Assembly (NCBI GenBank): GCA_018262575.1
Contig: JAGSYU010000007.1
Location: 1-64,000 of the forward strand
DNA length: 64,000 nt
Origin: Pseudomonadota bacterium
GTDB taxonomy: Bacteria > Pseudomonadota > Alphaproteobacteria > Rhizobiales > Pleomorphomonadaceae
Reading direction: 5' to 3'
Both the position numbers and the translations under genes were made by a program. Under the pieces are notes generated by a model. The model saw nothing but the letters and a program-made list of their open reading frames with translations. It made no database searches and had not been told where the DNA came from. Shown here in pieces: positions 55,272-57,182 of the stretch; position 1 is the first letter of the stretch; each line of letters begins with the position of its first letter.

Positions 55272-56084
55272 ATGCGACAGGTCAAGATCGCCACCTGGAA
55301 CATCAATTCCGTCCGCATGCGTCGGCTCATCGTCGAGCGGCTGCTCAACGAGGCGGCGCCGGATGTGCTGTTCCTGCAGGAGACCAAGTGCCAGGATGGC
55401 CAGTTTCCGGCCGCCGATTTTCGCAAGCTTGGTTATGAGCATGTGGCGTTGAACGGTGGTCGCGGTGGCTACCACGGCGTCGGCATCGTGTCGCGCCTGC
55501 CGCTCAGCGATGTCCGTGTCCACGAATTCTGCGACAAGATCGGCGATCCGCGCCATATCTCGGCGGTCATCGGAGAAGGCAATGCCGCGTTCCGTGTCCA
55601 TAACTTCTACGTGCCGGCCGGTGGCGACGAGCCGGACGTCGCCGTCAACCCGAAGTTCGAGCACAAGCTGCGCTTCCTCGACGAAATGAAGGACTTCCTG
55701 CCAACCGCGGGGGAGGGGGTGCCGGATGTGGTGGTCGGCGATCTCAACGTTGCCCCGCATGAGCACGATGTCTGGTCGCACAAGGCGCTCCTCAAGATCG
55801 TCAGCCACACGCCGATCGAATGCGAGAAGCTTGAGGCGGTCCGGGCCGCTGTCGGTTACGTCGATATTGCCCGGCGGTTCGTGCCGCTTCAGGAAAAGCT
55901 CTATTCCTGGTGGAGCTACAGGGCCAAGGACTGGCGGGCGGCCGACAAGGGACGGCGGCTCGACCACATCTGGGCGCATCCGAGTCTCGCCGAGCGGATG
56001 AGCGACTTCCGCGTCCTGAAAGACGCGCGCGATTGGGACCGCCCCTCCGACCACGCGCCGGTGACGGTTACCATCGAAGTTTGA
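55272..56084 (+). CDS. xth: Exodeoxyribonuclease III (AP endonuclease)
   Basis: 270 residues of the EEP nuclease family. KIATWNINSVRMRRLIVERLL, LFLQETKCQDGQFP (metal Glu), GGYHGVGIVSR, VVVGDLNVAPHEHDVW (catalytic Asp-Asn) and the C-terminal DHIWAHPSL and RPSDHAPVTVTIEV with catalytic His are all in place. It cleaves DNA at abasic sites and removes 3' blocks. The natural C terminus is intact, although the convergent cNMP-binding gene breaks off at its stop codon. Confidence 0.95.
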   Translation: MRQVKIATWNINSVRMRRLIVERLLNEAAPDVLFLQETKCQDGQFPAADFRKLGYEHVALNGGRGGYHGVGIVSRLPLSDVRVHEFCDKIGDPRHISAVIGEGNAAFRVHNFYVPAGGDEPDVAVNPKFEHKLRFLDEMKDFLPTAGEGVPDVVVGDLNVAPHEHDVWSHKALLKIVSHTPIECEKLEAVRAAVGYVDIARRFVPLQEKLYSWWSYRAKDWRAADKGRRLDHIWAHPSLAERMSDFRVLKDARDWDRPSDHAPVTVTIEV

Positions 56085-56332
56085 TGTCCGACGAGGGCGC
56101 CGCGCCCCACCACCTCGGAAGCCGCCTCGGCGTCTCCCGGCGGGAATAAGGCAACTTCGCCCGAGGAAACCACGTGGGCGCAATCGGCCCGATCGCCAGC
56201 CGAATAGAGGCGCTGACCATCTCGGAAATCGCGGCTTTCCGCCGAAAATGCCAGAAGGCGCAACTTGTCCTCCGTGAAGTCGGAGAGCATAGGCACCGTG
56301 CCGAGCAGTTTGATATCGGTCTCGAGACTCAT
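55916..56332 (-). pseudogene. Cyclic-nucleotide-binding domain protein, 3'-truncated
   Basis: From ATG 56332, residues 1-82 (ending VVGRGALVG) are the first half of a CAP-family cNMP-binding domain: LGTVPMLSDFTEDKLRLLAF, FRDGQRLYSAGDRADCAHVVSSGEVALF. The GE(L/T)AL...R-x-A-T phosphate-binding cassette and the last helix should follow. Instead the frame enters the antisense strand of xth, and residues 83-138 are simply the complement of xth (stop at 55916). The conserved part ends at 56087, three bases from the xth stop. This looks like a 3' deletion joined to xth. In related genomes a full-length version lies next to xth and the CenR-like regulator. Confidence 0.6.
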
Positions 56333-56498
56333 GAATGGCCTGACGCGAGCGGGCGGGTGGCGACGGACCTGCCGGTCAAGCGCCACCCACGCGGCGCTTG
56401 ACGCAGATTCCCTAGCATGCCGCCCGCTGAAGGTTAACCGCCCAATCTCCGGCCCGCCGGTGGCGGCCGGGTTTTCCACGCCGAAGGGCTGCCAAAGC

Positions 56499-57182
56499 TC
56501 AAGGTACCAGCTTGTAGCCGCCGCCCTCGGTGATCAGAAGCTGGGCGTTGGCCGGGTCCTTCTCGATCTTCTGGCGCAGCCGATAGATGTGCGTCTCGAG
56601 GGTGTGGGTGGTGATGCCGGCGTTGTAGCCCCAGACCTCGTGCAGCAGCACGTCACGCGTGATCACCTTGTCTCCAGCCCGATAAAGGAACTTCAGGATC
56701 GACGTTTCTTTTTCGGTGAGGCGGATCTTGCCGCCCTTGCCGTCGACCAGAAGCTTGGCCGAGGGACGGAAGGTGTAGGGGCCGATGGTGAACACCGCCT
56801 CTTCCGACTGCTCGTGCTGGCGGAGCTGGGCGCGCACGCGGGCGAGGAGAACGGCGAACTTGAAGGGCTTGGCGACGTAGTCGTTGGCGCCGGCCTCAAG
56901 GCCGAGGATCTGGTCGCTGTCGGTGTCGTGGCCGGTCAGCATGATCACCGGCGCGGCGAATCCACCCTTTCGGAGGATTTTGACTGCCTCGCGTCCGTCC
57001 ATGTCGGGCAAGCCGACATCCATCAGCACGAGGTCGACGTGGGCAGAGCGGGCGGCCTGCATGCCCTTGGTGGCGGTTTCTGCCTCAAGCGGCTCGAATT
57101 CTTCGAACAGCGATAGCTGTTCGACCAGCGCTTCGCGGAGGTCAGGGTCGTCGTCGACGATCAGGATTTTTCGAGCGGTCAT
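56499..57182 (-). CDS. OmpR-family response regulator (CenR-like)
   Basis: 227 residues. The receiver domain has ILIVDDDPDLREALVEQLSLFEEFE, phosphoacceptor Asp in VDLVLMDVGLPDMDGREAVKIL, TGHDTDSDQILGLEAGANDYVAKPF. The winged-helix domain has YTFRPSAKLLV, IRLTEKETSILKFLYRAGDKVITRDVLLHEVWGYNAGITTHTLETHIYRLRQKIE and GGGYKLVP. The sequence resembles CenR, the essential envelope regulator of alphaproteobacteria, but the sensor kinase is not adjacent, so this name is tentative. ATG 57182 has GGGGAT upstream. Confidence 0.88.
   Translation of the reverse strand: MTARKILIVDDDPDLREALVEQLSLFEEFEPLEAETATKGMQAARSAHVDLVLMDVGLPDMDGREAVKILRKGGFAAPVIMLTGHDTDSDQILGLEAGANDYVAKPFKFAVLLARVRAQLRQHEQSEEAVFTIGPYTFRPSAKLLVDGKGGKIRLTEKETSILKFLYRAGDKVITRDVLLHEVWGYNAGITTHTLETHIYRLRQKIEKDPANAQLLITEGGGYKLVP

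Follow-up and report, generated by a model that had tools for sequence, protein, structure and literature searches.

About 220 nt were most likely deleted recently from cnb, as we call a small, widely conserved gene for a stand-alone cyclic-nucleotide-binding (CNB) protein, leaving an ordinary loss-of-function pseudogene next to an intact DNA-repair gene, xth; we give this reading a probability of about 0.78. The window, the 64,000-nt stretch of DNA that was analysed, corresponds to contig C11 in a draft assembly of 4.4 Mb (295 contigs, 86% complete) that is probably of metagenome origin. The nearest relatives of this genome are Pleomorphomonas species (Hyphomicrobiales), among them P. carboxyditropha, P. 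oryzae, P. diazotrophica and P. koreensis. The gene order around the locus is trmD, rplS and xth, followed by cnb and cenR on the opposite strand; trmD and rplS are what we take the first two open reading frames to be, and the OmpR-type regulator upstream of cnb is presumed CenR-like by resemblance. The features of the locus are as follows.

55272-56084, plus strand: xth, exodeoxyribonuclease III, intact, 270 aa (TIGR00633, 181 bits against a cut-off of 99; PF03372).
55916-56086, minus strand: out-of-family tail of the cnb frame, which reads the 3' end of xth in antisense over 55 codons, together with one junction codon and the stop.
56082-56095, no strand: deletion junction, at which 214-226 nt of nine congeners are missing.
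56087-56332, minus strand: retained 5' part of cnb, codons 1-82, recognized by identity to congeners, dN/dS and a partial PF00027 match; its last two codons could be junction-derived.
56400-56446, minus strand: conserved block in the cenR-cnb intergenic region, GGTTAACC ... GCTAGGGAA, retained in the window and probably the cnb promoter or a regulator site.
56499-57182, minus strand: intact OmpR-type, CenR-like response regulator gene upstream of cnb (PF00072 and PF00486).

The cnb open reading frame (56332 to 55916, minus strand) encodes a hybrid of 138 aa, in which 82 residues of the family (MSLETDIKLL...GRGALVG) are followed by HQTSMVTVTGAW..., read antisense to xth up to a stop codon at 55916-55918. 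The sequence-only reading had described a CNB domain that is normal to residue 82 and antisense xth thereafter, and both the open reading frame and the family alignment agree with it. Residues 1-82 share 80-93% amino acid identity with ten congeners and near 66% with two more divergent genomes of the same genus. Beyond codon 82 the normal continuation of the family is GGLALIVDGERT...; the congener proteins have 153 residues, of which the first 82 are alike and are followed by GLALIVDGERTMTAVARGRVETILIRRPLFRRMLDEFPEIAAGLHRRLSANVRDTTSRLMTVRDRLDRLGN or close variants. The cnb frame in the window is disrupted relative to the intact orthologues of close relatives. PF00027 (cNMP_binding) is matched in its N-terminal beta-roll half, at model positions 2-55 of 89 (54 positions), with 25.9 bits, below the gathering cut-off of 27.5, and without the cassette; an intact congener scores 50.7 bits over positions 2-88. 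The N-terminal helices and first beta-roll strands are present, with the conserved residues D6, L10, L24, AF28-29, G46 and G58. The possibility that the tail follows a conserved antisense frame was rejected: in the same register, the xth antisense of relatives reaches a stop after 10, 35, 38, 39 or 55 codons, and the openness of the frame simply tracks the codon usage of xth.

The end of codon 82 (56087) lies just 2 nt from the xth TGA (56082-56084), whereas the same distance is 216-228 nt in nine congeners, and therefore 214-226 nt are missing from the window. Alignment of the DNA with the congeners gave a single clean gap at the junction. Codon 81 encodes Val in the window, whereas the congeners have Leu or Ile there; the bases past the xth stop, TGATGTCCGACG, resemble the 3' flank of xth in one relative, TGATATCGGATGCG. 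Because codon 81 and the bases beside the xth stop fit either side, the breakpoint can be placed only to within about 10 nt. The 2-nt distance is in accord with the original placement of the break within three bases of the xth stop, subject to that uncertainty.

Both neighbors are intact. The window xth retains all 270 codons, ends in IEV followed by the stop, and is 88-93% identical to that of ten congeners at the amino acid level across residues 1-270; the CenR-like regulator is 94-98% identical in close congeners. The gene itself is placed as in the rest of the family, convergent with xth and on the same strand as the upstream cenR. In nine of the eleven same-genus loci in which both genes are readable, 0-12 nt lie between the stop codons of cnb and xth; the remaining two have 106 nt (P. 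koreensis) and 54 nt (another same-genus genome). The sequence-only reading had proposed that the 3' half of the gene and the intergenic region were removed without harm to xth; the loss of the 3' half and the sparing of xth hold, but in most of the genus the "intergenic region" amounts to just 0-12 nt. A neat cut at the xth stop is to be expected, because the convergent genes end so close to each other. To remove the cnb stop yet spare xth, a deletion would have to end within this gap, and no special mechanism would be needed.

Codons 83-153 of cnb may have been lost by non-homologous or short-homology recombination, along with the stop codon and the 0-12 nt that separate it from the convergent xth. 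The deletion would have halted at the xth stop because a longer one would damage xth. No direct repeats of more than 8 nt were found at the two deletion ends, as looked for in relatives. Relocation of the 3' half of cnb was also considered and rejected, since a search of the rest of its own genome did not find a copy (best E value 0.12).

The DNA upstream of cnb is retained. Ten Pleomorphomonas loci carry the block at 56400-56446 (minus strand ATTGGGCGGTTAACCTTC...CGGCATGCTAGGGAATCTGCGTC) almost unchanged, with variable DNA on both sides. Within it, the palindromic GGTTAACC resembles a CtrA-type half-site. An imperfect 20-nt inverted repeat, which is not conserved in the congeners, lies directly upstream of cnb (56350-56393). 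Searches of the locus for terminators, sigma-70 promoters and Rfam RNAs found none. With the promoter region and the first 82 codons left in place, the 138-aa hybrid could still be translated.

Comparison with relatives supported the proposal that the window cnb is a deletion product. A full gene of 151-157 codons is present in all 19 other family genomes searched, the copy in one of them (G009) being split across two contigs. In a survey of the order, 142 of the 149 sampled genomes had at least one match to the cnb family at E <= 1e-12, with paralogues mixed into the matches; among the matches listed, only that of the window genome ends mid-gene. The sequence-only reading had named as its refutation a set of relatives with the same antisense-overlapping product of 138 residues; the family and order searches (in the order, among the matches listed) found none. 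Contig breaks within or at the 5' end of cnb were observed in two other drafts of the genus, G009 (C162/C247) and G011 (C59/C116), the loci concerned being L002, L134, L003 and L137; these breaks may reflect strain variation there.

The phosphate-binding cassette (GE[LM]AL ... R), which follows residue 82, is absent and replaced by xth antisense, and the C-terminal IRRxLFRRxLxExP helix region is gone, with all of the conserved residues R92, I107, R109, L111, R114, E118, P120 and L141. Eight of the 18 positions that are invariant across ten family members are lost in the hybrid, and the last beta strands and the C-helix and C-terminal helices are also missing. The AlphaFold2 model of the hybrid had a mean pLDDT of 61.3, compared with 90.9 for an intact congener; residues 84-138 were almost all below 50, with values of 27-44 from residue 91 onward. 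Such a product would most likely misfold and then be degraded. PDB 5D1I, a stand-alone CNB protein of Brucella abortus, ranks first both by sequence, in a search with the family profile (E 1.1e-41), and by fold, in a comparison with the model of the intact congener (TM 0.92 by target, 44% identity). It retains both the cassette (GEMALI) and the helices, whereas the window cnb ends before both. Literature searches for a stand-alone CNB gene beside cenR, or for 5D1I, found nothing, and term searches of two CenR papers (PMC10746171, PMC9275681) returned no mention of the CNB gene.

Selection on the remnant was gauged by pairwise dN/dS across codons 1-82. Values for the window cnb against relatives were 0.03-0.11 (mean 0.046), and the mean among intact relatives was 0.091. 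The window cnb has no private amino acid changes at sites that are invariant in the other copies. A remnant drifting for most of its branch would gather many replacements. There is thus no sign of relaxed selection, with dN/dS at about 0.05, and a recent deletion would look the same. The absence of decay implies that the deletion is young, that it is a minority or unfixed variant, or that the assembly is in error, and it also fits residual function.

The possibility was also weighed that the junction is an assembly or population artefact, a chimeric or minority path in the draft, with the full gene present in most cells. The quality of the draft, the undecayed stump and the contig breaks at or in cnb in G009 and G011 speak for it. 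However, both flanks are syntenic and similarly diverged from the congeners, a search of the bin found no further copy of the 3' half, and a k-mer assembler would have had no repeat on which to misjoin, because no sequence longer than 8 nt is common to the two ends in relatives. The short shared sequence and the similarly diverged flanks favor a genuine deletion, present in some of the cells if not in all, and we regard an artefact as unlikely. The same undecayed codons 1-82, together with the unspoiled upstream block, could be taken as signs of a new protein with a function of its own, formed either by the whole 138-aa product or by the half-domain of 82 residues; it might, for instance, act as an interfering fragment and owe a stabilizing end to the antisense tail. 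A young deletion accounts equally well for the state of the stump; moreover, the form occurs in one genome only in the family and order searches (in the order, among the matches listed), the tail is read incidentally from the xth antisense, and the model is of low confidence from residue 84, all of which make a new function very improbable.

A related proposal, to which we give a shade less credence still, is that the half-domain was kept on purpose in a lineage role that does not involve nucleotide binding, the 82 residues and the antisense-encoded tail acting on a partner; a role of this kind is conceivable because the cassette is already degenerate in the genus. Finally, xth may have been swapped in by recombination from a donor whose 3' flank lacked cnb, so that the junction, which falls at the xth end, would be the recombination endpoint. 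Yet the window xth is 82-88% identical to that of the congeners at the nucleotide level, within the range among the congeners themselves (81.6-91.0%), and such a replacement is hardly credible.

The sequence-only reading had also stated that the product would lack the phosphate-binding cassette. This is the case, but the cassette is already non-canonical in the genus: the canonical GELAL is GGLAL or GGLSL in Pleomorphomonas and DGLML in P. koreensis. Most intact Pleomorphomonas copies (e.g. L033, 3001-3459) have Gly in place of the canonical Glu. A survey of L040-L060, mostly from Microvirga, showed Gln at this position in most Microvirga copies (GQAAL); other relatives retain GE. In CNB domains the cassette glutamate contacts the ribose. 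With this residue gone from the Pleomorphomonas congeners, cyclic-nucleotide binding was doubtful before the deletion, and binding of cAMP or cGMP by the intact congener proteins is itself doubtful on these residues. To speak of a loss of cNMP binding may thus overstate what the window lineage lost, and the stand-alone CNB proteins of this family may more than once have changed or lost their ligand.

On the deletion reading, the window cnb is a pseudogene of an ordinary kind, produced by a recent deletion, and the gene loss is real but unremarkable. Pseudogenes that arise by deletion between convergent genes likewise lose their 3' end and stop, spare the neighbor and continue in frame into its antisense; compared with these there is nothing specific here, except that the cut seems unusually neat owing to the spacing of 0-12 nt between the genes. 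Automatic annotation could label the 138-aa open reading frame a CNB protein, though it is a truncated remnant, and the case has little import beyond annotation. The short spacing of convergent genes by itself makes a deletion look precisely targeted. The locus also suggests that a gene with at least one family match in each of 142 of the 149 genomes sampled across the order can be lost in Pleomorphomonas.
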